DNA of 35,965 nucleotides from an archaeon (lineage in GTDB: Archaea > EX4484-52 > GLR71). Each line of letters begins with the position of its first letter. Position 1 is the first letter of the stretch. The position numbers were made by a program, and so were the translations under genes. The notes beneath the pieces were generated by a model that saw only the letters and a program-made list of their open reading frames with translations, was not told where the DNA came from and searched no databases. The stretch is from positions 1 to 35,965 of the forward strand of contig WTCA01000064.1 in the NCBI GenBank assembly GCA_013138805.1. Direction: 5' to 3'. Shown here in pieces: positions 1,236 to 32,918 of this stretch.

Positions 1236-3758
1236 ATGGCAGAAGATGGCAAAGAGAAATTATACAAAGGAAAGAGGATGGTCTACCATACCCCTCTTGA
1301 TGAGAAGACAAACAGGCCTGCCGGATATATAGTCGCAGGCACTCCCGGTGAGCCATCAATTGTAGGGGGGGCTATGCTAAATTATCAGGGCCTTGCAGGA
1401 AAGATAGTCAAAGGCGCCAAGGAAGGATACGATTTTATTGAGCTTGATCTTTGGAACGATGCAGAAATACTTGAACCCCATCTTGCAGAAAGGATAAAGC
1501 ACTTAAGAGCAACACACAAGATAGATGTCGGCATTCATCTAAGAATAAATCTTGACCTGACAAGCGCATTAGGACCTATCTGGGATGTAAATCACAAGTC
1601 ACTGGTCACAGGTGTTTTAGGCGCGACAGAAGTTGTCAAGGCAAATTTCATATTGATGCACAGTGCAGCGACACCAATACTTGAATTCGGCGAGGCTGCT
1701 GCAAGGACAGCCCCGAGCACACTGGTAACGCCCTGGAAAGACAATCTTGCTGCATTTATTGAATCTCCCTTATGCTATGATCACCAGACAAGAAAAAGAA
1801 TACTTGAAAACGGTCTTGTGCCAAGGCTCAAATGGAATGTCTATTCTGCAAACAAGAAAAATATAGTGGACAAGGAAAAGGTAGAAAAATATGATGTTTT
1901 GCTGAAACCGCGATGCAAAGAAAAGGAAAAAGAGCCTACACTGAAAGACTGGGCCATATCAAAGTTTGTAAAAGACATCTGGTTCCCGGGAACCATCCCA
2001 CAGGCAGAGGTCATGGTCGCGATAAAAGATGTAAAGACGATGAGAGAAGTTTTTGACTGTGACACAGAAGCATATCTCCTTTTTGAAAAATGGTTTGACA
2101 AAGATGAAGGTAAATGGAGAAAAATAATAGAAAAGATACTTAAAAATTTAGAAGAAGATGCAAAAGATTCAAAAAACAAAATAGAAAATCTGCAACGTGA
2201 ATTACAAAGTCCAGGTAAAAGTGAAGAAGAAATAAAAAAGATAAATGATAGTCTTTCTGCATTAATTAAGGAATTTGAATCAAAAAGAAAAAAACATGAA
2301 GCTTTCTTTATAGAATATAAGCTTTACTTTGAGACTATAGTCTCTCACGAAAAACAGGGATATAAACCTAAAGATATATTTTATAATCATTTTGAAGATA
2401 TGATTGATCTTTTCAATAAAAGTATAGGAGAACGGGTAGACGATGATAAAGGCAAACCTGCAGACTCAAAATTCCCTTTCATGACAAAAGAAAAAAACAG
2501 AGAGACCTGTGATAATTTAAAAGCAGATTTAGTAATTCTTGAAGATATAAAAAAGAAAAATTATGTTAAGATAAAGTTATTTTATGACAGGTACAGCGTT
2601 GCAGATAACTTTTCATACTGGGTTCAGAAAGGTTCTGAAGGCGAAGAGCAGATAGCCTACAGGACTATTGCCAAATGGATGTATGTCATAAAAGACCCTC
2701 TATACGAAAAGATTGTGATAGGAGACAAGGAAGTAAATAAATGGTGGGATGAGAACAAAGAAGAAGTAAAAAAGCATAAAAGCGAGCTTTTCGGAGAGTT
2801 TAAGGGCAGTGACGAGCAGAACAGGATTGATTTTCTTGACCCTGACAACATAATATCATATACAAGCCTTAAAGGTGGTGTGATTGACATACCATTAAGA
2901 AAGATGGTCGCCGCAATCTCTGCTAAATATATACAGGGACACCTTGACAGGCCGATGGGGACAGATAAGAATCTTTACCTTGAAAACTCAAAGCCTGAAG
3001 AGGCTTATTTTAAGGCCAGCATGGACCGGCAATTAAAAAACATGCGTATTAATCCCGATGGCGGTAACAATCCGGAAAACATGAAATGCATTTACCAGTA
3101 CATGTATGATGAAGGTGTCCATTTCTATATAGAGACACAGGATGTCCTTCAGGAAGAATGGAGAGGAAAAGTACGGATTATGAGCCTGACAGACCATATA
3201 GAGATAATAAAAGCCTTCAGTGACCATTACGGTTTCGACAATGTCTCATACACTATGGATTTCGAGCACCTGACATCAAATCTCCTGAACCCGCGCCAGC
3301 AGATAGAACAGCTTGATAAAGGAGACGCGAAATACTTATCAATGGTGCACATCAACCCGCCGTCATCAGTGCAGGGACTTCATAAGATTCTAAAGAAAAT
3401 GTCATTTGATGCCGAATACATATACGGCTGGCTTTACAAGCTGAAAAGCCTTGGCATGTCAGGCGCATACTTCGTCTGGGAGATGGGAAAAGATACAGGC
3501 GGAGGCACCTATGAAGCTCCTCTTGCTTTAAGAGCCCTTGCAGGAGAACTAAAGAAAGGCACAAAGCCTGAAGACCTGCCTGAAGAGTTCTTCGGCATAG
3601 ACGCAAATTTCAGAGCAATGCAGGAGCAGGCCATAAAAGCTCATGGCCTTGACCCCCTGCGCGACATGTTCTTCTTTAAGCCGGCAGACCACACCTTTAT
3701 CGGCCAGATGGCAAGGGCAGCAAATGCAGAGATTGCGGACAAGGAAAGACTGAGATAA
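1236..3758 (+). CDS. TIM-barrel (AP-endonuclease-2/xylose-isomerase-like) protein with coiled-coil insert
   Basis: The product is 840 residues from ATG 1236; an in-frame TTG 15 bases earlier is less likely. Segments look like the strands of a xylose-isomerase-like TIM barrel with candidate metal ligands: FIELDLW (68-73), GIHLRINLDL (99-108), FILMHSAATP (138-147), FYIETQD (630-636), SYTMDFEHLTS (671-681), SMVHINPP (702-709) and FVWEMGK (746-752). The barrel halves are separated by a region whose residues about 288-455 are Lys/Glu-rich, coiled-coil-like and visibly AT-richer in DNA than the rest. The substrate is unknown; the fold family includes sugar isomerases and endonuclease IV. It lies 31 bases after two paralogous orphan genes. 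The barrel assignment comes from motif reading, not a search. Confidence 0.6.
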   Translation: MAEDGKEKLYKGKRMVYHTPLDEKTNRPAGYIVAGTPGEPSIVGGAMLNYQGLAGKIVKGAKEGYDFIELDLWNDAEILEPHLAERIKHLRATHKIDVGIHLRINLDLTSALGPIWDVNHKSLVTGVLGATEVVKANFILMHSAATPILEFGEAAARTAPSTLVTPWKDNLAAFIESPLCYDHQTRKRILENGLVPRLKWNVYSANKKNIVDKEKVEKYDVLLKPRCKEKEKEPTLKDWAISKFVKDIWFPGTIPQAEVMVAIKDVKTMREVFDCDTEAYLLFEKWFDKDEGKWRKIIEKILKNLEEDAKDSKNKIENLQRELQSPGKSEEEIKKINDSLSALIKEFESKRKKHEAFFIEYKLYFETIVSHEKQGYKPKDIFYNHFEDMIDLFNKSIGERVDDDKGKPADSKFPFMTKEKNRETCDNLKADLVILEDIKKKNYVKIKLFYDRYSVADNFSYWVQKGSEGEEQIAYRTIAKWMYVIKDPLYEKIVIGDKEVNKWWDENKEEVKKHKSELFGEFKGSDEQNRIDFLDPDNIISYTSLKGGVIDIPLRKMVAAISAKYIQGHLDRPMGTDKNLYLENSKPEEAYFKASMDRQLKNMRINPDGGNNPENMKCIYQYMYDEGVHFYIETQDVLQEEWRGKVRIMSLTDHIEIIKAFSDHYGFDNVSYTMDFEHLTSNLLNPRQQIEQLDKGDAKYLSMVHINPPSSVQGLHKILKKMSFDAEYIYGWLYKLKSLGMSGAYFVWEMGKDTGGGTYEAPLALRALAGELKKGTKPEDLPEEFFGIDANFRAMQEQAIKAHGLDPLRDMFFFKPADHTFIGQMARAANAEIADKERLR

Positions 3759-3761
3759 ATC

Positions 3762-4364
3762 TTATTTCCTCACAGCCTCAATGACGACCAGTTCCTCAAA
3801 ATGCAGTTTAAGCCTATTGATAATCCTGACATTAAATCCTTCTGATTCAAGATATTTGACTGACTTTCCATAATCCGATAAAGATGACTCAAGAAATATT
3901 ACTTTGCCTGAAGAAGATAGATGTAAAGAAACGCCTGACAAGAACCTCTCAATAACTTTCCTGCCATCAGCACCGCCGTCCCAGGCATGGTTTATTTCAC
4001 CGGAAACAGTCTCACCAGAATCCTGAGGAAGATAAGGCGTGTTGAAGACAATAAGATCAAACCTGCCCGAAACACCAGAGAAAAGGTCAGACCCGACAAC
4101 TTCCACATTCTTTACTTTATTTCTTGCAGCATTCCTCTTGCAGACATCCACAGCATGAAGATTAATATCACAGGCAACAACAGACGCAGCCCGGCCGGAA
4201 AGTGCAATAGCTATGATACCCGTCCCGCACCCGACCTCAAGAACTCTGGAACCGGCTCTAAAATCAACTGTTTCAAGACTATCTAAAAGTAGATATGTGT
4301 CATCGGACGGCTCATACACATTCTCATCAGTTTCTATTGAAAATCCTTTGTACTTAAATATCAT
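3762..4364 (-). CDS. HemK-like class I SAM methyltransferase (archaeal Mtq2/N6AMT1 type)
   Basis: The product is 200 residues, the full length of the archaeal HemK-related group. The N-terminus has VYEPSDDTYLLLDSL, typical of this group. Motif I is LEVGCGTG (42-49), followed by CDIN (65-68) for SAM binding. The catalytic tetrapeptide reads NTPY (108-111) where relatives usually have NPPY, then YLPQ and WDGGADGRKVIERFL as in archaeal members. Known relatives methylate the Gln of the GGQ loop in release factor aRF1/eRF1, with Trm112 as partner. The gene converges on the TIM-barrel gene with 3 bases between stops. Its start codon lies inside the first copy of a duplicated 71-bp sequence. Confidence 0.85.
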   Translation of the reverse strand: MIFKYKGFSIETDENVYEPSDDTYLLLDSLETVDFRAGSRVLEVGCGTGIIAIALSGRAASVVACDINLHAVDVCKRNAARNKVKNVEVVGSDLFSGVSGRFDLIVFNTPYLPQDSGETVSGEINHAWDGGADGRKVIERFLSGVSLHLSSSGKVIFLESSLSDYGKSVKYLESEGFNVRIINRLKLHFEELVVIEAVRK

Positions 4365-4427
4365 AAATAAATATCATGGAATAAAGTTAAATCTGTATCT
4401 CTGTATTTTGATAAAAAACCTTGAAAA
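4357..4427 (+). repeat. 71-bp repeat, copy A (leader of micro-protein 1)
   Basis: Positions 4357-4427 are identical to 4639-4709, an offset of 282 bases. This copy overlaps the first 8 bases of the leftward methyltransferase gene, including its start codon, and leads into a TATA box for the rightward micro-protein. Confidence 0.85.
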
Positions 4428-4429
4428 AA

Positions 4430-4438
4430 CTTAAATAT
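4430..4438 (+). promoter_or_regulatory. TATA box for micro-protein 1
   Basis: CTTAAATAT is preceded by an A-rich BRE-like stretch just after the 71-bp repeat. Its centre is about 36 bases before ATG 4470, so a short leader is possible. The same arrangement precedes micro-protein 2. Confidence 0.6.
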
Positions 4439-4469
4439 ATATCTAATCAATATATTAAAGTCGGATTAT

Positions 4470-4607
4470 ATGATGTATAATGAAAATGTAATAGAATTTT
4501 CTGATTATTTAGGTGTAGGTCTAATAATTCCATTATTAGCCGCCGCATATGTATGTTATAATAAAGAAGATATAGTGAATGTGATAATCAATAAAATAAA
4601 ATTATAG
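4470..4607 (+). CDS. 45-residue single-span membrane micro-protein 1
   Basis: ATG 4470 opens a 45-residue frame. It has a short acidic N-terminus (MMYNENVIEFSDY), one hydrophobic segment (LGVGLIIPLLAAAYVCY, residues 14-30) and a charged tail ending NKIKL. It resembles the next small protein in length, hydrophobic segment (AAAYV / TAAYIV) and tail (IVNVIINKIK / ITDIINKIK), so the two are diverged tandem copies. The family is unknown. The duplicated promoter region supports real expression. Topology, probably one helix with a cytoplasmic basic tail, is inference. Confidence 0.6.
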   Translation: MMYNENVIEFSDYLGVGLIIPLLAAAYVCYNKEDIVNVIINKIKL

Positions 4608-4638
4608 ATTCTCTAAAACAACCCACGACATGTATCTG

Positions 4639-4709
4639 AATATCATAAATAAATATCATGGAATAAAGTTAAATCTGTATCTCTGTATTTTGATAAAAAA
4701 CCTTGAAAA
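4639..4709 (+). repeat. 71-bp repeat, copy B (leader of micro-protein 2)
   Basis: This is the perfect copy of 4357-4427. Sequence after the two small genes is also similar (atagattct, then C/T, then taaaaca), so the duplicated unit covers leader, gene and 3' flank, about 280 bases. Confidence 0.85.
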
Positions 4710-4710
4710 C

Positions 4711-4719
4711 CTTAAATAT
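4711..4719 (+). promoter_or_regulatory. TATA box for micro-protein 2
   Basis: CTTAAATAT is centred 27 bases before ATG 4742, so the transcript should start at or next to the start codon (leaderless). Confidence 0.65.
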
Positions 4720-4741
4720 CTATGTTATTAATATATTAAAT

Positions 4742-4888
4742 ATGGTTTATACGAATCCCGTCGGAGAATATATAGTAGAATATCCTGGCTTTGGTGCTAT
4801 AGGAGGTCTTGCAGCAATGACTGCCGCATATATAGTGATCAGGCATAAACAAGATATAACTGATATCATAAATAAAATAAAATCATAG
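4742..4888 (+). CDS. 48-residue single-span membrane micro-protein 2
   Basis: ATG 4742 gives 48 residues: MVYTNPVGEYIVEYPG, then a Gly/Ala-rich hydrophobic stretch (FGAIGGLAAMTAAYIVI, about 17-33), then a charged tail RHKQDITDIINKIKS. A longer frame from TTG 4703 is rejected because it would run through the TATA box. The protein is a diverged copy of the preceding micro-protein, while their leaders are still identical. It ends 5 bases before the convergent site-2 protease stop. The function is unknown; a small regulatory or accessory membrane peptide is one possibility. Confidence 0.65.
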   Translation: MVYTNPVGEYIVEYPGFGAIGGLAAMTAAYIVIRHKQDITDIINKIKS

Positions 4889-4893
4889 ATTCT

Positions 4894-6165
4894 TTAAAAC
4901 AGCCAGCCGCCGAATATATTAAAAAGCAGCAAAACAAGCGTAAACATTGACACAAACTTCACAATATTCTTCCAGCTCCTTATCCCTGCAGTCTTGGCAA
5001 TCTCCTCAAACATAAGACCCCCATCCAAAGGCTTTATCGGCAGCAGATTAGCAAGACCTATACCGAGATTGAGCATAATTATGAAATTGAAAAGAGTCGC
5101 AATATAAAGCAGGACAGGGGTAATAATATAGCCTGCAACACCAGGAATACTGCTTTTTTTACCGATATCAGATATACCTATAAATGCCTTGCTCTCATTG
5201 TCAGGATTCTCAGCAAGGATAAGATCATAAGTCTTGTTATCGACAATGATAGATATATTATCACCAGGCTTGAGACTCTCCATCACAAACTCCAGCATAT
5301 ACATCTCATATGTCTCATTTCCATTGATATTGGTTATTATTCCGTTTTCCGGTAGTATACCGTCTGCAGGCATACCTTCTATAGTGCTTTCATATAAAAC
5401 ACCATCGATAACTGAATTTGAATATGCAAATAACACACCGAAAAAAAGAGGTATAGACAGAAGGGCCACAATAAAATTAGCAAAAGATCCTGCGCCGTAT
5501 ATCCTTGTCTTCACAAGCGACTTTGACTTCTTGATCTGCTCCTGGTCCGGCTCTGCAAAGCCCAAAGGAAGTATGGCAAGAAACCCGTAGCCTAAAGACT
5601 TAACATTTATCCCCTGCGCCTTTGCCACAAGAGCATGCGAAAACTCATGTGCAACAAGTATCACAAATATGCTTATCAGCCAGAAATCGATAGGCACAAA
5701 AAACACAGGAGCATTAGGAATATTTATAGGAAGTACAAGCTGGACTGCAGGCAGTGCCGCAGCTACAAAAATCATATCATAGGCAGCTTCAAGAAGATAC
5801 GCAACAATAAAGCCGGAAGCTCCGAAAAGAGACAGCACTTCAGGAAACACAGATTTCAGCACAACACCGAAAACAATATAGAACAACGCAAAGGAAAGCA
5901 CAGTCTTTACAATAACACCTTTAGACTTCTTAGTCTTGAACAGGTACCATGCTCCAAGCGTGCCAAAACTGAATATTATACCAAGATCTGAAAACCTCTC
6001 AAAGAATTTCTTATGCCTGGATGAAAACCTCTCAATGAAAGCAAGCCCTCTCTTAGTTCTGCGAAGATAAAGTAGCGATGCCTCTTTCTTAAAATTCTTC
6101 CTGTCAAATATATAGACAATAATCATAAGGGCAAGAAGAACTGCAAGAGAAAAGTAATTTGACAT
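4894..6165 (-). CDS. Site-2 protease family membrane metalloprotease (M50) with PDZ domain
   Basis: The product is 423 residues with several membrane segments. The zinc site HEFSH is at 173-177 within a hydrophobic helix (VILVAHEFSHALVAKAQG). The second conserved element, NLLPIKPLDGG (373-383), supplies the third zinc ligand Asp381. Between them lies a PDZ-like region (about 255-335, with INGNETYEMYMLEFV). Members cut transmembrane helices of membrane-anchored regulators after a first cleavage. It reads divergently from a sugar-transferase operon; a minus-strand TATA (about 6185-6195) centred 25 bases before its ATG implies a leaderless mRNA. The substrate is unknown; the neighbouring single-span micro-proteins are worth considering. 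Confidence 0.9.
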   Translation of the reverse strand: MSNYFSLAVLLALMIIVYIFDRKNFKKEASLLYLRRTKRGLAFIERFSSRHKKFFERFSDLGIIFSFGTLGAWYLFKTKKSKGVIVKTVLSFALFYIVFGVVLKSVFPEVLSLFGASGFIVAYLLEAAYDMIFVAAALPAVQLVLPINIPNAPVFFVPIDFWLISIFVILVAHEFSHALVAKAQGINVKSLGYGFLAILPLGFAEPDQEQIKKSKSLVKTRIYGAGSFANFIVALLSIPLFFGVLFAYSNSVIDGVLYESTIEGMPADGILPENGIITNINGNETYEMYMLEFVMESLKPGDNISIIVDNKTYDLILAENPDNESKAFIGISDIGKKSSIPGVAGYIITPVLLYIATLFNFIIMLNLGIGLANLLPIKPLDGGLMFEEIAKTAGIRSWKNIVKFVSMFTLVLLLFNIFGGWLF

Positions 6166-6245: not shown

Positions 6246-6974
6246 ATGGCAAAAAAGTTCAATGAAATCTCAGTCATAATACCTATATACAAGGATGAGA
6301 AAAGGCTGAAAAACAACCTTCCGAAAATCAGAAAATACCTTGAAAACAATTTCAAAAAGTTTGAGATAATAATCGCACTTGACCCGCCGGCAGGCAATAC
6401 TGAAAAGACTGCAAAAAACATATTTAAAAATGTAAAGATAGTAAAGAACAAAAGGCGAATGGGCAAAGGGTATTCTATAAAAGAAGGAATGCTGAAAGCA
6501 GTATATAGCCCTGTCCTTTTCATAGACATTGACCTTTCAACGCCAGTTGAGGAAATAGATATACTGCTGCCATACCTCAAAAAGAACCATGTTATAATAG
6601 GCTCAAGAAACATGCAGGAATCAAAGATAAAAGAAAGACAGCCGTTTTTAAGAAGCGCTCTTGGAAACATATACCCATATCTTGTCAGGTTGCTGGTCAT
6701 AAAAGACATAAGAGACACCCAATGCGGCTTCAAGCTGTTCAGGAAAGATATATTAAAGCCTGTGTTCTCATTACAGAGAATAGGCGGATTCGCCTTTGAC
6801 TCAGAGATACTGCTTATCGCAAAAAAGAGAGGATATAAGATAAAAGAAGTTCCTGTGGAATGGAGCAATTCAAAAGACAGCAGGCTCAATATCGTTAAGG
6901 ATTCATTGAGGATGGCAGTAGATGTTATAAAAATATTTACAAACACCAAGAGAGGTTTTTACGATGGAAACTAA
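6246..6974 (+). CDS. Family 2 glycosyltransferase, polyprenyl/dolichyl-phosphate sugar synthase type
   Basis: The product is 242 residues with a GT-A fold. ISVIIPIYKDEKRL (8-21) begins the nucleotide-binding half, DIDLSTP (94-100) holds the metal-binding DxD, then GSR and DTQCGFKLF follow, and late VPVEW. This set is typical of Alg5/DPM1-like enzymes that move a sugar from a nucleotide onto dolichyl phosphate at the cytoplasmic membrane face. No C-terminal membrane segments are present. It is the first gene of a three-gene unit, overlapping the SMR-type gene by 11 bases. Together the three could make, flip and use a lipid-linked sugar. The sugar itself cannot be told from sequence. Confidence 0.88.
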   Translation: MAKKFNEISVIIPIYKDEKRLKNNLPKIRKYLENNFKKFEIIIALDPPAGNTEKTAKNIFKNVKIVKNKRRMGKGYSIKEGMLKAVYSPVLFIDIDLSTPVEEIDILLPYLKKNHVIIGSRNMQESKIKERQPFLRSALGNIYPYLVRLLVIKDIRDTQCGFKLFRKDILKPVFSLQRIGGFAFDSEILLIAKKRGYKIKEVPVEWSNSKDSRLNIVKDSLRMAVDVIKIFTNTKRGFYDGN

Positions 6975-7308
6975 ATTGATCATTTTCGCGCTCGTCGCAT
7001 TCTGCGCCCTTTTAGGAGCAGCAGGCCAGATATTTTTCAAGCAGGCATCAGCAGACATAAGCATGGATATCAAATCATGGGTATACAATTACAAACTGAT
7101 AATAGGACTATCCTTATATGCAGTCGCTACAATACTTTTCGTTGTCGCCCTAAAATACGGCAACCTTTCAATCCTTTACCCGATAATCGCCACAAGCTAC
7201 ATTTGGGTCGCTGTCTTCTCAAAATCCTTTTTGGGAGAAGCGTTTCCCCCGTTCAAATGGATGGGAATACTCCTGATAATCGCAGGAGTAGGTATTGTCA
7301 CAAGATGA
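6964..7308 (+). CDS. Four-span SMR/EamA-like membrane carrier, possible lipid-sugar flippase subunit
   Basis: The product is 114 residues with four predicted membrane helices: IIFALVAFCALLGAAGQIFF, LIIGLSLYAVATILFVVAL, LSILYPIIATSYIWVAVF and WMGILLIIAGVGIV. Length and layout match the small multidrug resistance/EamA-half family, including ArnE/ArnF-like flippase subunits. The early AAGQIFFKQAS and the middle YPIIATSYIW are typical of the group. It overlaps the GT2 gene by 11 bases, and the membrane glycosyltransferase begins 25 bases beyond its stop. The flippase role rests on context; a drug or metabolite exporter is the alternative. Confidence 0.8.
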   Translation: METKLIIFALVAFCALLGAAGQIFFKQASADISMDIKSWVYNYKLIIGLSLYAVATILFVVALKYGNLSILYPIIATSYIWVAVFSKSFLGEAFPPFKWMGILLIIAGVGIVTR

Positions 7309-7333
7309 TTATCGTAAAAATAATGGTGTATAT

Positions 7334-8908
7334 ATGTCAAAGACAGGCGCAGAGCCAAAAACATCAGTACTCTATGACAAGAAAATGCTTATTCTTTTTA
7401 TCCTCGTAACCGCATATTTCATATTCCAGCACCAAGCTAGCCTATCATGGGATTTCAGCTCTTATGTGGAAAACGCCAGATACTGGTTTTCAGGAGGAAC
7501 ATATTTTGAGCCGTTAAGACCTCCTCTGATGCCTTTCATTCTAGGTATATTAAGCATATTCGGTTTCAGTATGGCAGAATATCTGTATATCATCCTCATC
7601 TCTGCCCTTTTTATGCACTCAAGCGCAAAGCTTGCTGAAGCGTTAAGATTTGACAAAGTCGCCTTCTACGCAGTAAGCCTGAACGCATACATCCTTATGT
7701 CAGGCCTTTATAACGGCACAGAGCTCCTCTCAGTCGCATTGCTTGAGCTTTCAATTGCCGCAATCATTAAAAAAGAAGTAATATCCGGCTTTTACCTGGG
7801 ATTGAGCGCACTTGCAAGATACACAGGCCTCGGGCTGTTCCCTGTTCTGCTGCTTTTAGGAAACCCGAAAAAGATAGTTAAAAGCATGATTCTTTTCTCA
7901 ATACCGATAAGCATATGGTTCCTTTACAATTACATCAGGTTCGGCAATCTTTTCACAAGCATAGCGGACCAGTACGCCAACAACATACTCTACAGGGACT
8001 ATCTTATCCAGCCGGCCAACCCACTGCATTTTCTCGCTGTCCTGAACATATTTGTCCCGTTTTTTATTATAGGCCTTGCCTTAGGGATCCACAGCCTTGC
8101 ACAATATATATACAAAAGAAGAAAAGATATCAAATCATGCCTAAAATCCACATTTAACAACAAGAAAGGAGAAATAATAATGCTTGCAATATTGATATTT
8201 TCCGTAATGTCTTACATGAACATCCCCATGAAAGACCCACGGTATCTTTTCACCTTGACTGTTCCTGCGATATACTATTCATATCTCGGTGTCAGGTATG
8301 CAGCAAAAAAGATAGGCAAAAAGACAGCAGCACTTGCAATTGTAATGTTTCTCATGACTTTCTCGCTTGTCCTTGTAGCAGAAATTACAAGGATGGACGG
8401 AAAGCCCCTGATAAAAGAGCTGTATTATGACACACCATACATATATCTTGATGCGATAGACACATTGAAAGATGCAGGGATTGAAGACTGCTCTCTAATG
8501 TCAAACGCATGGGTCTTGATGAATTATCTCGGGCAGCCGTCAGAACCTTCCACAAGACACGAGTTCGTTGAAGAAGACCTTGAAAACGGCAAGATCATGC
8601 TATTTTTCTTTACTATAGGAGAACCTGATTATGTCAGGGATAAGCAGTTCATTGAGTCGCTTCCAATCATCTATCAGAATAGCAAATATATCATCGTCGG
8701 AAATAAGGACATATGCCTTCAGCAAGAGGTTATAAATACTTCATATCTTAAAGATTTGAAAAGGATAGTATACAGAAGAGACAACATGACTATAAACACA
8801 AACCCCTGCATCATCCTTTTAGGCAATACACCTCTGCTTGAGAAATCATGCAACCTTGTCAACCTGAACGGCTTCAGGCAGGACGAGAACAGGTGGACTG
8901 GTGCATAA
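7334..8908 (+). CDS. Multi-span GT-C glycosyltransferase (PMT/ArnT-like)
   Basis: The product is 524 residues from ATG 7334; an in-frame TTG at 7295 would overlap the preceding gene. Ten or more hydrophobic segments fill residues about 15-360. After the first helix comes LSWDFSSYVENARYWFSGG with an acidic catalytic-type Asp in the first external loop, then PLRPPLMPF, as in lipid-linked GT-C enzymes. A helix-end DPRYLF motif precedes a soluble C-terminal domain of about 160 residues. Such enzymes take a sugar from a polyprenyl-phosphate donor outside the membrane and add it to protein or lipid. The gene follows a donor synthase and a possible flippase. Its acceptor is unknown. Confidence 0.8.
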   Translation: MSKTGAEPKTSVLYDKKMLILFILVTAYFIFQHQASLSWDFSSYVENARYWFSGGTYFEPLRPPLMPFILGILSIFGFSMAEYLYIILISALFMHSSAKLAEALRFDKVAFYAVSLNAYILMSGLYNGTELLSVALLELSIAAIIKKEVISGFYLGLSALARYTGLGLFPVLLLLGNPKKIVKSMILFSIPISIWFLYNYIRFGNLFTSIADQYANNILYRDYLIQPANPLHFLAVLNIFVPFFIIGLALGIHSLAQYIYKRRKDIKSCLKSTFNNKKGEIIMLAILIFSVMSYMNIPMKDPRYLFTLTVPAIYYSYLGVRYAAKKIGKKTAALAIVMFLMTFSLVLVAEITRMDGKPLIKELYYDTPYIYLDAIDTLKDAGIEDCSLMSNAWVLMNYLGQPSEPSTRHEFVEEDLENGKIMLFFFTIGEPDYVRDKQFIESLPIIYQNSKYIIVGNKDICLQQEVINTSYLKDLKRIVYRRDNMTINTNPCIILLGNTPLLEKSCNLVNLNGFRQDENRWTGA

Positions 8909-26667: not shown

Positions 26668-27879
26668 TCAAACCCCGACAACCCTATAGACAACATCATT
26701 CTCACGGACTCTTTCATCAACTTTTAAGCCAATCAATACCCCTTTCTTAGCCTTGCTGACCTTTACCTCATCAACAAAGATAGACTCAGCATCCTGCTTA
26801 AAATAAGTAGTTTTCCCTGCAATCATCAGTTTATCTCCGACCTTAAGCCCCGAATTCTGAAGAGCGACAACAGCAACCCCTAATTTAGCATAATAATTCT
26901 TCACCACACCGACAGCCCGCCTCTTCTCTTTGGCAACATTATCGCTGTCATCATAGTTGAACCCCTCTTTCGTAGGCTTCGCAAAATAAAACCCTGTAGA
27001 AAACCCGCGATTATACACCTTGGATAACTCATCTTTCCATCCAGCAACCTTATCCTTAGTATATGTCCCGTCAAAGTAAGAATCAATAGCTTCCCTGTAA
27101 CACCTGGAAACAATCTCAACATACCTCTCATCCCGGAGACGGCCTTCAATCTTGAAAGAGTCAATCCCTGCCTTGACAAGCTCAGGTATATGCTCAATCA
27201 TGCAAAGGTCTTTAGCGCTCATCAAAAACTTGCCGTCGCAGATAATCTTATTCTTCTCAACATCGACAAGCATCCATTCCTTCCTGCACGGCTGTGCGCA
27301 GGCTCCGCAGTTGGCAGACATGCCATATAGATATGAAGAAAGATAACACCGCCCGGAGACGGACACGCACATGGCACCGTGCACAAAAGTCTCAACCTTG
27401 ATATCAACCATCTTCTTGATCTCAGCAATATGTTTCAGATTCATCTCACGCGCAAGAATCAGCCTTTCAGCACCCATATCACGATAAAACTCAGCAGTCT
27501 TCCAGTTGGATATGTTCGCCTGCGTGGAAACATGGAATCTCACCCCTTCCTCCTTACACAGAGCAATCACAGCAGGATCCCAGGTTATGACAGCATCAAC
27601 TTCAGAAGCTTTCGCCTTTCTGACAATAGTCTCAGCAACAGAAATATCATTATTATAAATAATAGAATTAACAGTCAAATACGCCTTAAGCCCTTTCTCA
27701 TGGACTTTTCTTACAACACTTTCAATATTCCTCAGATCTATGCCATTATTCCTTGCCCTCATATTCAGCTTACCGCATGAGAAATAGACAGCATCAGCAT
27801 AATCTCTGCAGGCCTTGAATCCCGCAAGATTCTTGATTGGAACGAGAAGTTCAGGTTTTTTGAAATGTTTAACAGTCAT
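26668..27879 (-). CDS. Peptidase U32-family protein (RlhA/TrhP type)
   Basis: The product is 403 residues from ATG 27879. KPELLVPIKNLAGFKAC starts the TIM-barrel-like part, then VSTQANISN, the signature ETFVHGAMCVSVSGRCYLSS, and the Cys cluster CGACAQPCRKEW, followed by KDLCMIEHIPELVKAGIDSFKIEGRLR. A small beta-barrel closes the C-terminus. Bacterial relatives are RNA hydroxylases (RlhA on 23S rRNA, TrhP on tRNA), with an iron-sulfur cluster on the four conserved Cys; the older label is collagenase. A start six codons upstream is possible, but TATA-like elements at about 27900-27913 favour 27879 as leaderless. It is divergent from trm1. Confidence 0.9.
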   Translation of the reverse strand: MTVKHFKKPELLVPIKNLAGFKACRDYADAVYFSCGKLNMRARNNGIDLRNIESVVRKVHEKGLKAYLTVNSIIYNNDISVAETIVRKAKASEVDAVITWDPAVIALCKEEGVRFHVSTQANISNWKTAEFYRDMGAERLILAREMNLKHIAEIKKMVDIKVETFVHGAMCVSVSGRCYLSSYLYGMSANCGACAQPCRKEWMLVDVEKNKIICDGKFLMSAKDLCMIEHIPELVKAGIDSFKIEGRLRDERYVEIVSRCYREAIDSYFDGTYTKDKVAGWKDELSKVYNRGFSTGFYFAKPTKEGFNYDDSDNVAKEKRRAVGVVKNYYAKLGVAVVALQNSGLKVGDKLMIAGKTTYFKQDAESIFVDEVKVSKAKKGVLIGLKVDERVRENDVVYRVVGV

Positions 27880-27933
27880 ATCCCATATTTCACGCATAAC
27901 TTTAAGAAATTAAACACCTTTAAGACACATCAT

Positions 27934-29049
27934 ATGGAAAAGATCACAGAAGGCAAGATAGATATAGAAATCCCGAAAGGCAACATCAGAAAGAAAGACA
28001 CAGTCTTCTACAACCCAAAGATGCAGCTCAACCGCGACATCTCAATACTGGCGATAAAAGTCTTCGAAAAGATAGCAAAAAGAAAAATAAGAGCAGCCGA
28101 CGCCCTGTCATCCTCAGGCATAAGAGCATTAAGAATGGCAAAAGAATGCAAAAAAATAGAAAAAGTATGTATAAACGACCTGAACCCGCGAGCCATAAAG
28201 ACAGCAGAAAAGACAGCAAAAGACAACAACATAAAAAATGCCGAATTCTCAACAGAAGACGCAAATGTCTTCCTCTCAAAAAACAAATGCCTTTTCGACT
28301 ACATAGACATAGACCCTTTCGGCTCGCCGATATATTATCTTGACTCCTGTGCAAGGGCAGCTTCAGGAAAATCACTGATAGGCATAACAGCGACAGACAC
28401 AGCACCGTTATCCGGCACATACCCAAAAACATGCGTAAGACGATACGGAGCAATACCATTAAGGGAAGACATAAAGCACGAGATAGGACTTAGAATACTT
28501 ATAGCATCGATAGTGCGCGCATTCTCAAGGCATGACAAGTCATTTGTCCCGATAATATCATACTCCAAGATCCATTACTTCAGGATAATGGGCATATCTA
28601 CATCAAGCACAGGCTTGGCAGGAAAGTCAGCAGAGACTATAGGATACGCCCTCTACTGCAAAAAGTGCGGCAACAGGACATTAACAAAAAAACCAAAAGA
28701 CGAAAAGTGCGGCATCTGCAACACCGATTTCACAATAGCAGGACCCCTATGGACAGGTCCTATAAACTCGCATCTTTTCATCGGAAAGATGATAGAAAAA
28801 GACAGCAAAGAAATCAAAGAGACCTCAGACTTCCTTGAGGCCCTGCAGAAAGAATCAGCAGTCCTTGAACCTTTCTATGATCTCCATCAAATCTGCAAAA
28901 AAAACCATCTTGAGATACCCAAGAGAGATAATCTGTTCAAAGAACTCATAAAAAGAGGCTACAAGGCAGAAAAGACCCATCATGAGCTTACAGGGTTCAA
29001 GAGCGATATAAATTATAAAGAACTTCTAAAAATCATAAAAGAGATCTAA
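27934..29049 (+). CDS. trm1: tRNA (guanine26-N2)-dimethyltransferase Trm1
   Basis: The product is 371 residues from ATG 27934, where EKITEGKIDIEIPKG begins as in archaeal Trm1; the longer frame to 27865 would overlap the U32 gene. Motifs: FYNPKMQLNRDIS, a SAM-binding region with ALSSSGIRALRMAKE, CINDLNPRAI, the catalytic DIDPFGSP, TATDTAPLSG, and a C-terminal zinc knuckle (YCKKCG...KCGIC). It makes m2,2G26 in tRNAs. Its final 84 bases (28966-29049) recur in diverged form at 30459-30545, beyond the neighbouring ATPase gene, so the 3' end lies at a rearrangement junction. Confidence 0.95.
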   Translation: MEKITEGKIDIEIPKGNIRKKDTVFYNPKMQLNRDISILAIKVFEKIAKRKIRAADALSSSGIRALRMAKECKKIEKVCINDLNPRAIKTAEKTAKDNNIKNAEFSTEDANVFLSKNKCLFDYIDIDPFGSPIYYLDSCARAASGKSLIGITATDTAPLSGTYPKTCVRRYGAIPLREDIKHEIGLRILIASIVRAFSRHDKSFVPIISYSKIHYFRIMGISTSSTGLAGKSAETIGYALYCKKCGNRTLTKKPKDEKCGICNTDFTIAGPLWTGPINSHLFIGKMIEKDSKEIKETSDFLEALQKESAVLEPFYDLHQICKKNHLEIPKRDNLFKELIKRGYKAEKTHHELTGFKSDINYKELLKIIKEI

Positions 29050-30377
29050 TGCTCAAGCATCCATTTCCATATTGGAGTATACCTTATCTTCATATCGTCT
29101 ATTATCTCTTCAGCCTCATGATCTTCAGTTAGTACTATCCCTTCTTTCAGCTTGAACTCATCCATTGCAGACAATAAAGCTTTTGTCTCTCTTTTCTTAG
29201 TCTTTTCATCATCTATATTCCAGCAGACCTGAATAAGCTGGCTAACTTCAAGATTTTCTTTTATCAGGAAATCAACTTCTTCTTGCTTAAGATTACGCCA
29301 GTAGAAAATATTATCTTTCCCATAGTTTCTTATCAGATAGACAGCTACAATGTTTTCTGCAAGCTTACCAAAATTTTCAGAATATTTAAGTGCAGCAACA
29401 TTTATTAACCCAGTATCTGCACAATATACTTTCTTTGGATACTGCCTTATTTCCTTTATTTTTTTTGAAAATAGAGGAACAAAATGCATAAGATATGTAT
29501 CTTCAAAACTTTTCATTATATCGACTACAAGGTTTGGCGAAAGCTTTCTTTTAATGATAAGGACCAGATTGTTTCGCAGCTTATTTGCACTTGTCAATGA
29601 AGAAAAATTATTTATGAGCAATTCCGCTGTAACCCGAACAAGATGTGAATCCTGAAACTGATATCTATTGACAATATCTTTATTGATGATACCATAGAAT
29701 ATCTCTCTTAATATCTCAGTCTTTAAAAATTCTTTTTCCAGTACAATCTGTGGAAAACCGCCAAAAACCATATACTCATTTAACTGCTTCTTTATAATAC
29801 TTGCTTTTACCGTAATATCACTGTCTCTGATTTCAAGACCTTTAAAAAACAGGAATTCCCTAAAAGTCAAAGGGCTCAGCTCTATAGTAAGAGATCTGCC
29901 GGTAAGCACAGTTGAAAGCTCAGAATATATAAGCTTTGAACTGGAACCTGTTATGATTATCTTTACTTTCTCTTTCTTTTCAAGCATTAACCGTACCCAT
30001 TTTTCCCATCCTGGCAGATTTTGCACCTCGTCCAGAACAATTATACAGAAATCATCCTTATTTACATATGTCCTGTATGCATCATATATCTTATCAAGAA
30101 AATCTGTATCAAGATACGGACCAAACTTTGGATCCTCAAAGTTAATATATAATGTCTGTGTATCTTTAAGATTTTTCCCGATATTTTCCTTCATATATTG
30201 TTTCGTCAATGTTGTTTTTCCGCATCTTCTTATCCCGATGACAGAGATTGCAATATCTTTTGCTTCAGAAAACTGCATAATCCTATCTAAATAGTAGTCT
30301 CTTCGTACGCCAGTTTCCTGTTTTGACCCCCAGAAGTTCAGAGGAGATAATACTTCAATTATATCTTTAGACTGCAT
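29046..30377 (-). CDS. AAA_14/DUF4143 family ATPase
   Basis: The product is 443 residues. The Walker A is GIRRCGKTTLT (about 48-58) and the Walker B IIVLDEVQNLPGWEKWV, followed by TGSSSKLIYSELSTVLTGRSLTIELSPLTFREFL, the standard order of this family. The C-terminal DUF4143 part has the restriction-nuclease-like segment FYWRNLKQEEVDFLI. These ATPases are abundant and patchily distributed in archaeal genomes, with unknown function. The DNA is AT-richer than trm1. Its stop overlaps trm1's stop by 4 bases, and its promoter region carries strong dyads. A trm1-end remnant lies just upstream, so this looks like an inserted cassette. Confidence 0.92.
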   Translation of the reverse strand: MQSKDIIEVLSPLNFWGSKQETGVRRDYYLDRIMQFSEAKDIAISVIGIRRCGKTTLTKQYMKENIGKNLKDTQTLYINFEDPKFGPYLDTDFLDKIYDAYRTYVNKDDFCIIVLDEVQNLPGWEKWVRLMLEKKEKVKIIITGSSSKLIYSELSTVLTGRSLTIELSPLTFREFLFFKGLEIRDSDITVKASIIKKQLNEYMVFGGFPQIVLEKEFLKTEILREIFYGIINKDIVNRYQFQDSHLVRVTAELLINNFSSLTSANKLRNNLVLIIKRKLSPNLVVDIMKSFEDTYLMHFVPLFSKKIKEIRQYPKKVYCADTGLINVAALKYSENFGKLAENIVAVYLIRNYGKDNIFYWRNLKQEEVDFLIKENLEVSQLIQVCWNIDDEKTKKRETKALLSAMDEFKLKEGIVLTEDHEAEEIIDDMKIRYTPIWKWMLEH

Positions 30378-30432
30378 ATCATATTATGAGTAATATAACT
30401 TTATATAAATATCATATTATCTATAATATGAT
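30378..30432 (-). promoter_or_regulatory. Promoter and repeated operator-like sites of the ATPase gene
   Basis: ATCATATTAT occurs at 30378-30387 and 30411-30420 and, inverted, at 30423-30432; the last two form a perfect 10-base dyad around CT. Between the copies lies a minus-strand TATA (TTTATATAAAG, about 30399-30410) centred about 28 bases before the ATG at 30377. Sites flanking both sides of the TATA box are typical of autorepression. The regulator is not identified. Confidence 0.6.
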
Positions 30433-30458
30433 TTAAGAGTTTATACTATAAACACAGT

Positions 30459-30545
30459 GCAGAAAAGACACATCATGAGCTGACGGGATTCAGGAGCGAT
30501 ATAAGCTATAAAGAATTGCTTGAAATAATCAAAGCTCTATCATAA
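30459..30545 (+). pseudogene. Diverged second copy of the trm1 3' end
   Basis: Reading from 30459 gives AEKTHHELTGFRSDISYKEL followed by LEIIKALS and a stop. Trm1 ends AEKTHHELTGFKSDINYKEL then LKIIKEI. I count 22 of 27 residues identical, with many third-position differences, so this is a related but not recent copy. There is no start codon and no upstream Trm1 sequence. The fragment lies 82 bases beyond the ATPase start, so the ATPase gene is bracketed by two trm1 3' ends in the same orientation. It overlaps the 3' end of the next leftward gene by 40 bases. Confidence 0.85.
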
Positions 30546-31210
30546 TTAAACATATCATTATCACCTGAAAGCCCTGACAGCACATTTTTCTCATATTCAC
30601 CCAAAGGCTTTATTCCCAATATATTTCTCAAACCAAGACCATTTGGCGCATATACGCTTATCTCGGACTCACACTCATAACCTATAGGCAAATCCAGAAA
30701 CTTAGGTGACATATAGACAAGAATCCCCTTTGTCTTATCCCATGCATCATCAAAAAACTCCCAAAGATCAGTTTCAGTCATACCATATTCTTCTGCCTCA
30801 ATCAATAGGGGCGGCTTCTCGCCTTCTTCTGAAGGATAATACCATCCGCTTGAGTCAAGATAGAATGCCGGGTCATCAACAGGTTCAAAACCAATATTAC
30901 TGGCAATATAATGGCGGGAAGCAATAAGATGTGCATAAAGTACAGCATCGTCATGTATTTCATCAAAATCAAAAAGTTTTTTATAAAAAAGAAATCTCTT
31001 AAATTTAGCTTTATCCGGCACCAGATAAAGGCAGCCGTCTTTATAATCCTCAAGATGTTCAGGATGGCGGTCTCTCCACCTCTTCTCAGACGACGGCAAT
31101 ACTCCTGTCTCTAACAATAACTTAACAGCTTCAACACTTGTCCCATGCACAGCCACAGCATCATCAGGATTAAAATCCAGCAGCTTCTGTATATCAGTTT
31201 TTTCAGGCAT
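30506..31210 (-). CDS. Orphan protein with ADP-ribosyltransferase-like H-Y-E layout
   Basis: The product is 234 residues, the last gene of a three-gene leftward unit. The N-terminal segment AVHGTSVEAVKLLLETGVLPSS (20-41) resembles the HGT plus helix plus G start of many ADP-ribosyltransferase-like folds. GCLYLVPDKAKFKRFLFY (59-76) supplies a Tyr in the expected second position, and ECESEISVYAP (179-189) a Glu in the third, giving a candidate His22-Tyr62-Glu181/183 triad. This is pattern reading, not a confirmed family. The 3' end overlaps the trm1 remnant. No signal or membrane segment is seen. Alternatives are an RNA phosphotransferase-like or non-catalytic relative. Confidence 0.6.
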   Translation of the reverse strand: MPEKTDIQKLLDFNPDDAVAVHGTSVEAVKLLLETGVLPSSEKRWRDRHPEHLEDYKDGCLYLVPDKAKFKRFLFYKKLFDFDEIHDDAVLYAHLIASRHYIASNIGFEPVDDPAFYLDSSGWYYPSEEGEKPPLLIEAEEYGMTETDLWEFFDDAWDKTKGILVYMSPKFLDLPIGYECESEISVYAPNGLGLRNILGIKPLGEYEKNVLSGLSGDNDMFNYDRALIISSNSL

Positions 31211-31234
31211 AAAAATCAGAAGATAAATAATCTC

Positions 31235-31795
31235 TCAGGCATTTGCAGCTGGTATATTCAATTCCGCATAAACATTTCTTTTTATATATTCTATAATCCT
31301 TTCTGATGTTTTTTCATCTTTTACAGTATGACAACCTCCTGGCAATAAATTAACTTCCCTTCCTATATTCAGCTCAAGGTTTTCAACACGATACAAAGAG
31401 CCATACTGAGGCACTCCTACTGCAAAGCTTAGTGATGTCTCGTTTTTTAGATTTCTTAGATGAAAATCACAGCTGATTCTCCCATGATAATCAGTTGTAA
31501 AAACTTCAGCAAGCTTAAAGTTATCCTTTTTGTAAGTATTGGAAAAACCCAAAAAGGGTCCTGTAGTGTCTTGATGCTGGAGTTTTTCCGGAGTGATTTC
31601 ATCACCGAAAATATCAGACTTAATCTTAATAAATGTCCTCAGGATTTCAGAATAGATTTCATTTTCAGACTCATAAAAATAAACGCGGCTGTCCGGATCT
31701 CTTAATACTTCACAATCATATTCAAAAACAATATCAAGAACATTATTTTCTTTTTCTTCAAAGCTGACATCCAGAATTCTGTCCATAGTACCCAT
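31235..31795 (-). CDS. Orphan protein of 186 residues, middle gene of the island operon
   Basis: The family is unknown. ATG 31795 is chosen over an upstream TTG because the preceding stop ends 5 bases before it and GGTTGA can serve as ribosome binding site. The protein is soluble with acidic N-terminal beta-like segments (NNVLDIVFEYDCEVL), a helix (IYSEILRTFIKIKSDIFG), several strands (VFTTDYHGRISCDFHLRNL, SLSFAVGVPQYGSLYRVENLEL) and a short C-terminal helix. Cys and His residues (CDFH, GGCHT) are present without a clear metal motif. Coupling to the genes on both sides suggests joint function. Confidence 0.65.
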   Translation of the reverse strand: MGTMDRILDVSFEEKENNVLDIVFEYDCEVLRDPDSRVYFYESENEIYSEILRTFIKIKSDIFGDEITPEKLQHQDTTGPFLGFSNTYKKDNFKLAEVFTTDYHGRISCDFHLRNLKNETSLSFAVGVPQYGSLYRVENLELNIGREVNLLPGGCHTVKDEKTSERIIEYIKRNVYAELNIPAANA

Positions 31796-31800
31796 AAAAA

Positions 31801-32424
31801 TCAACCCTTAAAAATCTTAGCCAGCGCAGGCAGAACCTCATCCCTCTTTGTAGTATAATCAGAACCTGAACTAATTACAGACTGCAAATATGTCTTTGGA
31901 TTAAAGATATCATCCGACGCATGATATATGCCCCGAATAACAATATCACCAATCTCAATAGCCTTATCTTTCTCACTGCCTTCAAGATTCTTAATAATAT
32001 TAAAAGCATTAAGCAAAAAAAGTGTACCACGATATGGAACATGCACATCTGATGCCAGCTTTTCATTGGCTATGACACTGTAGATATCATCAAAATCCTC
32101 ATATTTACCGTTCCTAAAATTGAAAAACGAATATGCAGTCATCTCAAGCCCATCCTGAACAATAGAAAAAATATTCCGTTCATGGGGCGGCAAAGATCCA
32201 CCACATTCAAGAAGCAAAGCTTCACCATATCTATATACATCCTTGACTAACATGCACATCCCTATTGAAAGGGCATCCAGCATAGGACCTAACCTCTGTG
32301 CATCCCCATTCCTTAAAAGATCATCCTTAACATCCCTTACCATCTGCGCATGTTCCTCAAACGCACCGACATCATATGGTATTCTCAAAACATGTTCTGT
32401 ATCTACAATTGCATCCATATTCAT
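31801..32424 (-). CDS. Orphan helical protein of 207 residues, first gene of the island operon
   Basis: The family is unknown. The start is ATG 32424; GTG 32427 and ATG 32418 are alternatives. It is a mostly helical, acidic, soluble protein with two Cys in the first half (IGMCMLVKDVYRYGEALLLEC), an aromatic-rich helix (GLEMTAYSFFNFRNGKYEDF) and a C-terminal helix ending ALAKIFKG. Its minus-strand promoter region (TTTTAATAATTAATTAAAT, about 32432-32450) abuts the first 33-bp direct repeat. Two further orphan genes follow with gaps of 5 and 24 bases. Confidence 0.65.
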   Translation of the reverse strand: MNMDAIVDTEHVLRIPYDVGAFEEHAQMVRDVKDDLLRNGDAQRLGPMLDALSIGMCMLVKDVYRYGEALLLECGGSLPPHERNIFSIVQDGLEMTAYSFFNFRNGKYEDFDDIYSVIANEKLASDVHVPYRGTLFLLNAFNIIKNLEGSEKDKAIEIGDIVIRGIYHASDDIFNPKTYLQSVISSGSDYTTKRDEVLPALAKIFKG

Positions 32425-32447
32425 CACTCTAATTTAATTAATTATTA

Positions 32448-32480
32448 AAACGCACATTTTAAATATCTTTACCTACATTT
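32448..32480 (+). repeat. 33-bp direct repeat, copy 1, with TATA box
   Basis: Positions 32448-32480 are identical to 32855-32887, 407 bases apart in the same orientation. The repeat contains TTTTAAATAT, a good TATA box on the plus strand. This copy precedes the truncated DUF3800 frame. Confidence 0.85.
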
Positions 32481-32516
32481 CATAGTTAAATCAATACATT
32501 CTAAGCAACTAGACCG

Positions 32517-32684
32517 ATGTGTATCAATATGGAATTTGCGTTTCTGGATGAAAGTGGTGATTTAGGAAAAAATAGTAAATATTTGGTATTAACTTTAGTA
32601 TGCACAAGAAAAACCAAAGAAATAACAAAAATTGTTAGAAAAACCAAGCAAAAATTATTGCAGAAAAATAATCATAATAAATAA
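32517..32684 (+). pseudogene. Truncated DUF3800 gene (N-terminal fragment)
   Basis: A 55-residue frame from ATG 32517 (or ATG 32529) reads MEFAFLDESGDLGKNSKYLV, then LTLVCTRKTKEITKIVRKTK, and stops. FLDESGD followed by a hydrophobic strand and a basic helix is the N-terminus of DUF3800, a predicted RNase H-like family with an acidic active site often found near mobile elements. Full members have about 200-250 residues, so most of the domain is missing. The upstream repeat supplies a TATA box. It could be a decaying remnant or, less likely, a small functional peptide. Confidence 0.7.
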
Positions 32685-32800: not shown

Positions 32801-32854
32801 CTATATAAACTTAACGATAATTACTACTGATTCATTAAATTAAAATATTCTTGC

Positions 32855-32887
32855 AAACGCACATTTTAAATATCTTTACCTACATTT
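32855..32887 (+). repeat. 33-bp direct repeat, copy 2, in the purL promoter
   Basis: This is a perfect copy of 32448-32480. Its TTTTAAATAT at about 32864-32873 would start purL transcription near 32897, giving a leader of about 20 bases. It is therefore probably the working purL promoter. Confidence 0.85.
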
Positions 32888-32918
32888 TTTACTTATAGGC
32901 AATAATTAAAGATAATTG

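Follow-up and report, generated by a model that had tools for sequence, protein, structure and literature searches.

Structure of the trm1 Locus

The DNA analyzed here (the window) is a stretch of 35,965 nucleotides (nt) covering contig WTCA01000064.1 of assembly GCA_013138805.1, from an archaeon of the GTDB lineage EX4484-52; GLR71. It carries trm1, encoding a tRNA N2,N2-dimethylguanosine methyltransferase, followed by a lone convergent ATPase gene of the AAA_14-DUF4143 type and, on the far side of that gene, by a second copy of the trm1 3′ end (Table 1). A sequence-only reading of the window had pointed out this repeat in the same orientation and the likeness of its two copies in protein despite silent differences, and both observations were confirmed. 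In a search of the whole genome (1.33 Mb), the second tail was the one further match of clear significance (E-value 4.8e-16, 83% identity over 76 nt), the next match having an E-value of 0.003. The remnant beyond the ATPase gene (AEKTHHELTGFRSDISYKELLEIIKALS and a stop) and the tail fused to trm1 (AEKTHHELTGFKSDINYKELLKIIKEI and a stop) agree in the encoded residue at 22 of their first 25 codons. Eleven codons differ in sequence, 8 of them silently, and third positions hold 9 of the 13 base differences. The stop codon of the ATPase gene (29046-29048, minus strand) overlaps that of trm1 (29047-29049). At the other end, the last 40 nt of the remnant double as the code for the orfA C-terminus on the opposite strand, an overlap that may have helped to preserve the remnant and may shape its substitutions. 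Upstream of the ATPase gene, inverted copies of ATCATATTAT and ATAATATGAT flank TTTATATAAAT, and a palindrome (GTTTATA-c-TATAAAC) lies at 30439-30453.

Table 1. Features of the trm1 locus and the insertion (window coordinates).
Feature	Position	Strand	Evidence
trm1 open reading frame, tRNA N2,N2-dimethylguanosine methyltransferase	27865-29049	+	Pfam TRM, E 5e-104
Native trm1 body, up to the junction	27865-28965	+	93% DNA identity to G002, 242 codons before the junction
Element-borne replacement trm1 tail (last 27 codons and stop), now the functional 3′ end	28966-29049	+	Direct repeat; excess silent divergence; ends in KEI and stop
Lone AAA_14-DUF4143 ATPase, 443 amino acids, PADLOC PDC-S01	29046-30377	-	Pfam, PADLOC, AF2 model, Foldseek, motif conservation
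ATPase promoter/operator segment, right end of the insertion	30378-30458	-	Sequence, inverted repeat, limit of homology in close ATPase pairs
Displaced native trm1 tail (remnant), reads AEKTHHELTGFRSDISYKELLEIIKALS and stop	30459-30545	+	Repeat match; continuous alignment with the G002 empty site
orfA, native convergent neighbor of trm1; 3′ end overlaps the remnant	30506-31210	-	Same order in G002, G005 and G006

Empty Sites and the Origin of the Two trm1 Tails

If an element had inserted at the end of trm1, relatives with an uninterrupted trm1 and no second end would be expected, and such alleles were found in three genomes. In G002, a member of the same genus whose trm1 protein is ∼93% identical, trm1 is followed directly by orfA-orfB-orfC, and in G005 and G006 orfA likewise comes directly after trm1, all without the ATPase gene, which is also absent from the trm1 locus in G003 and G001. 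Window positions 30459-32424 (the remnant, orfA and beyond) form one continuous block with G002 contig C60, and the window up to ∼29022 forms a second block with G002 trm1; both blocks span the tail, which is single in G002. Since G002 has orfA-orfB-orfC straight after trm1, all genes as far as 32.9 kb are native sequence, and the whole island to 32.9 kb, one of two mobile units envisaged in the sequence-only reading, was rejected. The other trm1 loci with enough flanking sequence gave no convincing second tail, and different cargo between two trm1 ends, a further prediction of that reading, was not encountered among the other loci fetched.

The remnant ends in KALS and the G002 protein in KGLS, while the fused tail ends in KEI; the remnant and G002 trm1 both then run into the same convergent gene, orfA. 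Measured against G002, silent changes affect 32 of 242 trm1 body codons but, within the fused tail, 9 of 25 (p = 0.006). Because of this jump in silent divergence and the likeness of the remnant’s C-terminus to that of G002, sequence comparison indicates that the displaced remnant is the native tail and that the fused tail was imported with the insertion, which spans 28966-30458 (1,493 bp). This agrees with the earlier suggestions that one copy came from a related organism and that the element supplies its own version of the target 3′ end. A local duplication of the trm1 end was rejected on the silent-site pattern and the empty-site comparison. None of the inverted repeats listed surrounds 28966-30458, so the terminal repeats of a transposon or insertion sequence (IS) were not found there, and the duplicated trm1 segment is 83% identical, unlike the identical short target-site duplication that such elements make.

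Insertions at Other Gene and tRNA Ends

The same ATPase family was found between duplicated ends of other genes elsewhere, the clear targets being the ends of trm1, a HUMPS-family gene, leuS, a reverse-transcriptase gene, a Fic gene, tRNA-Arg and tRNA-Thr. The HUMPS-family gene of G027 (Pfam OMPdecase/HUMPS), probably a hexulose-6-phosphate synthase gene, is intact and is followed by a convergent ATPase gene, a tail remnant and downstream sequence. Its counterpart in G018, without an insert, continues into the sequence found after the G027 remnant: positions 4011-4885 and 6353-7743 of the G027 locus (L083) align with G018 832-1706 and 1645-3203, respectively. All five changed codons between the two tails are silent, stop included, and the tails are closer to one another than to those of other species, so the donor was a close relative.

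At leuS of G029 (identified by its Pfam editing domain), the ATPase gene runs in the same direction as its target. The arrangement of leuS tail plus ATPase is common to G029 and G023, where the contig stops before any remnant, and is absent in G018 and G033; the remnant has a CCC codon as in these empty relatives, whereas the fused tails of G029 and G023 both have CCA. In a patescibacterial genome (L299), an intact tRNA-Arg (4889-4961) is followed by the ATPase gene and then, beginning 7 nt past the ATPase stop codon, by 56 nt of the tRNA 3′ half. In the acceptor stem, the displaced 3′ end pairs perfectly with the 5′ half and the fused 3′ end pairs with one G-T wobble, and this better pairing suggests that the displaced end is the native one. 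The tRNA-Thr (L188) and reverse-transcriptase gene (L187) cases both come from the single-contig genome G131, the tRNA-Thr repeat being short (19 of 24 nt) and spotted by eye. At L290 the target is the end of a Fic gene.

Extent of the Mobile Unit

Close pairs of ATPases at unrelated loci were used to delimit the moving DNA. These included L187/L188 within one genome (87% amino acid identity), L083/L106 within the order (76%), and pairs linking this genus with archaea of a group that lies outside the phylum searched (L099/L174, 83%; L090/L173, 86%; L095/L169, 83%). In such pairs the main DNA similarity opens 44-137 bp before the start codon and closes within ∼27 nt of the stop codon. Since close pairs at non-orthologous loci share only that DNA, the mobile unit, as delimited by these alignments, is a single gene with its promoter, and the narrower of the two units envisaged earlier, the ATPase gene alone, is thus the one upheld. 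The imported tail lies on the 3′ side of the ATPase gene at trm1 and the HUMPS-family gene and on its 5′ side at leuS, tRNA-Arg, the reverse-transcriptase gene and the Fic gene, changing sides with ATPase orientation. The tail copy is thus no fixed part of the mobile unit, a pattern that fits one-sided break repair, as in homing, better than a fixed attachment (att) site. The earlier interpretation is supported at its core, and there is no integrase in the element, but integration at an att site is probably not the route.

Tandem palindromes occur in the promoters of several ATPase subfamilies. Subfamily-specific forms seen at L099, L174, L095, L169, L196 and L122 include TTTGGT..ACCAAA, TTCTTTT..AAACGAAAGG and TTTCTTTCC..GGAAAGAAAT, possibly serving self-regulation through the winged helix. 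Separately, three different family genes of G112 (L169, L173, L174) are 83-86% alike in amino acids to genes of G006, G001 and G000, which suggests frequent recent exchange between this genus and another archaeal group.

Recurrence Across Archaea and Patescibacteria

Bracketing by direct repeats was surveyed for all open reading frames (ORFs) of at least 150 amino acids in 500 kb around family members, a bracket being a direct repeat within 600 bp (blastn E ≤ 1e-4), and family and other ORFs were compared by Fisher test. Within the order of the window archaeon, brackets surrounded 16 of 52 family genes vs. 7 of 254 other ORFs (p = 6e-9), and in other archaea 11 of 86 vs. 6 of 466 (p = 4e-6), counts that overstate gene-end events because some brackets are operator palindromes, tails of other ATPases or gene 5′ ends. 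Leaving out one tandem array (L116), 13 of 49 family genes in the order were still bracketed (p = 4e-7). This array (G010:C9) holds at least four related ATPase genes, possibly from repeated insertion beside the element’s own kin. When genome contigs were searched with the ATPase, only two relatives were found, one of them 69% identical at another locus.

The ATPase Protein

The window ATPase matches Pfam AAA_14 (E 4e-35) and DUF4143 (E 5e-16), with otherwise only weak P-loop matches, and the PADLOC model PDC-S01 (E 1.8e-107); an NCBIfam search returned nothing useful. By Pfam it is not of the LAGLIDADG or GIY-YIG type. It has Walker A and B motifs, an Orc/STAND-like AAA+ domain, a winged helix and a PD-(D/E)XK-like C-terminus (E341, D369, Q383-V-C385). 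An AlphaFold2 (AF2) model built from 31 sequences reached a predicted local distance difference test (pLDDT) score of 87.7, vs. 38.6 for a single-sequence model. By Foldseek, the AF2 model matched SSO1545 (2fna), PABY2304 (2qen), Orc1/Cdc6 and STAND ATPases; the protein thus resembles STAND/Orc-Cdc6-like archaeal AAA+ ATPases in its predicted ATPase and winged-helix fold, and differs in its DUF4143 C-terminal domain, which has no sequence match among solved structures. We know of no mobility reported for ATPases of this kind.

In the C-terminal domain the order of elements is helix-strand-strand-strand-helix-strand (alpha-beta-beta-beta-alpha-beta), as expected for PD-(D/E)XK folds. E341, E367 and D369 are nearly invariant in the family, and positions 383/385 read ExK in 51 of 128 members and QxC or QxT in 52 of 128. 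The C-terminus of the leuS-associated member gave a weak match, below the curated cut-off, to UPF0102 (E 0.007), a PD-(D/E)XK-like family.

A Proposed Mechanism and Its Alternatives

Taken together, we hold it to be probable, with moderate confidence, that 28966-30458 is a single-gene selfish element consisting of a PDC-S01-type ATPase-nuclease gene, its promoter and the trm1 3′ end of a related organism. The evidence for mobility and for tail replacement is good; cutting by the ATPase protein is inferred. The protein would bind and cut the 3′ end of a target gene still free of the insertion, and the gene-side break end would be repaired by copying a donor in which trm1 precedes the ATPase gene, importing donor tail and ATPase together. 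The other break end would be joined directly, the native tail surviving as a remnant that begins at the cut, and the target gene would stay functional while no longer matching the cut site. A break in the target 3′ end with such one-sided repair is the simplest account, and would explain why tails are imported and short, why remnants start from the presumed cut and why both orientations occur.

Several observations weigh against this explanation. In place of the canonical (D/E)-x-K, the window protein has Q-V-C, with the catalytic K missing from its usual position, and the full E-D-ExK set is found in only 50 of 128 aligned members. No donor could be found for the trm1 tail. About 70-85% of family members have no detectable bracket, and in Patescibacteria the excess of brackets was not significant (7 of 34 vs. 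12 of 131, p = 0.065), other patescibacterial genes, such as a Schlafen/AlbA_2 gene, being bracketed too. At L160, L190, L194 and L196 the brackets resemble operator palindromes of the genes themselves, those at L079 and L204 are the tails of other ATPases, and those at L120/L121 and L305 are gene 5′ ends.

Among the alternatives, the family may be a single-gene antiviral defense system that spreads because it would protect its hosts, with mobility incidental. This is in line with the strong PADLOC match and with the description of PDC-S01 as the fourth most common predicted defense in prokaryotes, with 9,986 archaeal and 29,494 bacterial loci (PMC12988326). However, protection would leave tail replacement unexplained, and we consider it an unlikely account of the locus; a defense gene could be mobile by any route, and this reading therefore does not wholly exclude a selfish element.

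The ATPase gene could also be the passive cargo of a circular cassette, inserted by a chromosomal or viral tyrosine recombinase acting in trans, with the 3′ end of the target as att site and restored as in the e14 prophage at icd. Gene-end and tRNA-end targets with restored ends are typical of integrase elements, and tyrosine recombinases are encoded elsewhere in G000 (two matches), G131 and G224. Yet none lies within any of the units, that of the window holding the ATPase gene alone, and no PF00589 match was obtained in G027, which has the HUMPS-family insertion (its assembly is 81% complete). The many targets are unrelated to one another, the att position is not fixed, and the tail is excluded from the DNA common to recently moved units, all of which makes a recombinase in trans rather improbable. 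We regard passive horizontal transfer as improbable to the same degree. Here, DNA of a related cell carrying trm1 and the ATPase gene would enter by homologous recombination on the trm1 side and an illegitimate join on the other, the ATPase playing no role. It predicts the same anatomy, including a tail imported from a homologous gene, but is disfavored because bracketing is ∼10 times commoner around this family than around neighboring genes in archaea; in addition, the replaced tails are short (84 nt at trm1, ∼60 nt at the HUMPS-family gene and ∼35 nt at leuS), and the same ATPase family recurs at tRNA ends.

Finally, a local duplication of gene ends (a long target-site duplication) or an artifact of metagenome assembly, in keeping with the direct orientation of the copies and with the multi-contig draft assemblies that hold all close cases in the order, is very improbable given the mostly silent differences, by which both copies evolved as coding tails, the greater distance of the fused trm1 tail than of the gene body from G002, the better pairing of the displaced tRNA-Arg end, the cases in single-contig genome G131 and the occurrence of the leuS event in two species.

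Comparison With Known Systems

The e14 prophage inserts at icd by means of its own integrase and provides this housekeeping gene with a working 3′ end that has diverged at silent sites. The trm1 insertion is similar to e14-like elements in its restored gene end and in the second copy at its far side, and differs in consisting of one gene without an integrase and in having its tail at no fixed end. A closer likeness is with the mobile ORFs (mORFs) of fungal mitochondria, described in atp6 of Allomyces macrogynus and in atp6, cox2, nad3 and atp9 of Glomus sp., where a foreign C-terminal segment is fused in frame, the native 3′ end is displaced, the differences are largely silent and relatives have empty sites (PMC3630166). 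Endonuclease-driven mobility has been reported for these mORFs, which encode LAGLIDADG or GIY-YIG endonucleases. At trm1, too, a foreign 3′ end is in frame with the target and the native end is displaced beyond the ORF, and uninserted alleles are found for trm1 (G002, G005, G006), the HUMPS-family gene (G018) and leuS (G018, G033). In contrast to mORFs, the archaeal protein is an AAA+ ATPase with a PD-(D/E)XK-like domain, tRNA ends are also used and the ATPase gene occurs in either orientation.

The window protein also fits PDC-S01, described as an ATPase fused to a PD-(D/E)XK domain (PMC12988326). PDC-S01, however, is defined by protein family as a defense candidate, and gene-end insertion with tail replacement is not described in the PADLOC entry or in the passages of PMC12988326 consulted. 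No demonstrated function for the family was found, and the titles and abstracts listed for COG1373, AAA_14 and STAND held nothing on mobility, while the single paper found to mention DUF4143 dealt, judging from title and abstract, with a different topic; nor was there an earlier report of such gene-end insertions in the literature searched, which leaves out most subscription papers.

The finding extends beyond trm1 to a family of very large size that currently counts as a defense candidate. We suggest, tentatively, that AAA_14-DUF4143 (PDC-S01) genes, of which tens of thousands are scored as defense systems, may constitute a new class of selfish elements in prokaryotes, each a single gene whose product, an AAA+/winged-helix ATPase-nuclease, homes into the 3′ ends of genes and tRNAs and provides replacement ends. 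Such elements would correspond, in prokaryotes, to the mORFs of fungal mitochondria, with an unrelated protein at their base. If these are homing-like selfish genes, or defense genes that spread in this way, their abundance and patchy distribution would be directly explained and counts of the archaeal defense repertoire would change. The finding also documents the replacement of gene tails outside mitochondria, with a different protein. As remnant starts are predicted cut sites, the function of a large family without an assigned role becomes testable.

Other Observations

Lone genes with the same kind of direct-repeat bracket occur in Patescibacteria (L294:2625-4046, L297, L301 and L303), and at the bracketed Schlafen/AlbA_2 gene the repeat (103 nt, 92%) hugs the gene; other families of single genes may be mobile in a similar way. 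At L080:8071, L084:11296, L097:631 and L211:6650, short genes that look winged-helix- or nucleotidyltransferase-like by eye are accompanied by a repeat ∼90-600 bp past the stop codon, possibly representing bracketed two-gene cassettes. In the window itself, a 58-nt segment of the purL upstream region is directly repeated (83%) at 32431-32488 and 32838-32895, 407 bp apart, and encloses a short DUF3800 ORF (32517-32684); this may be another insertion, separate from that at trm1, whose target was duplicated.
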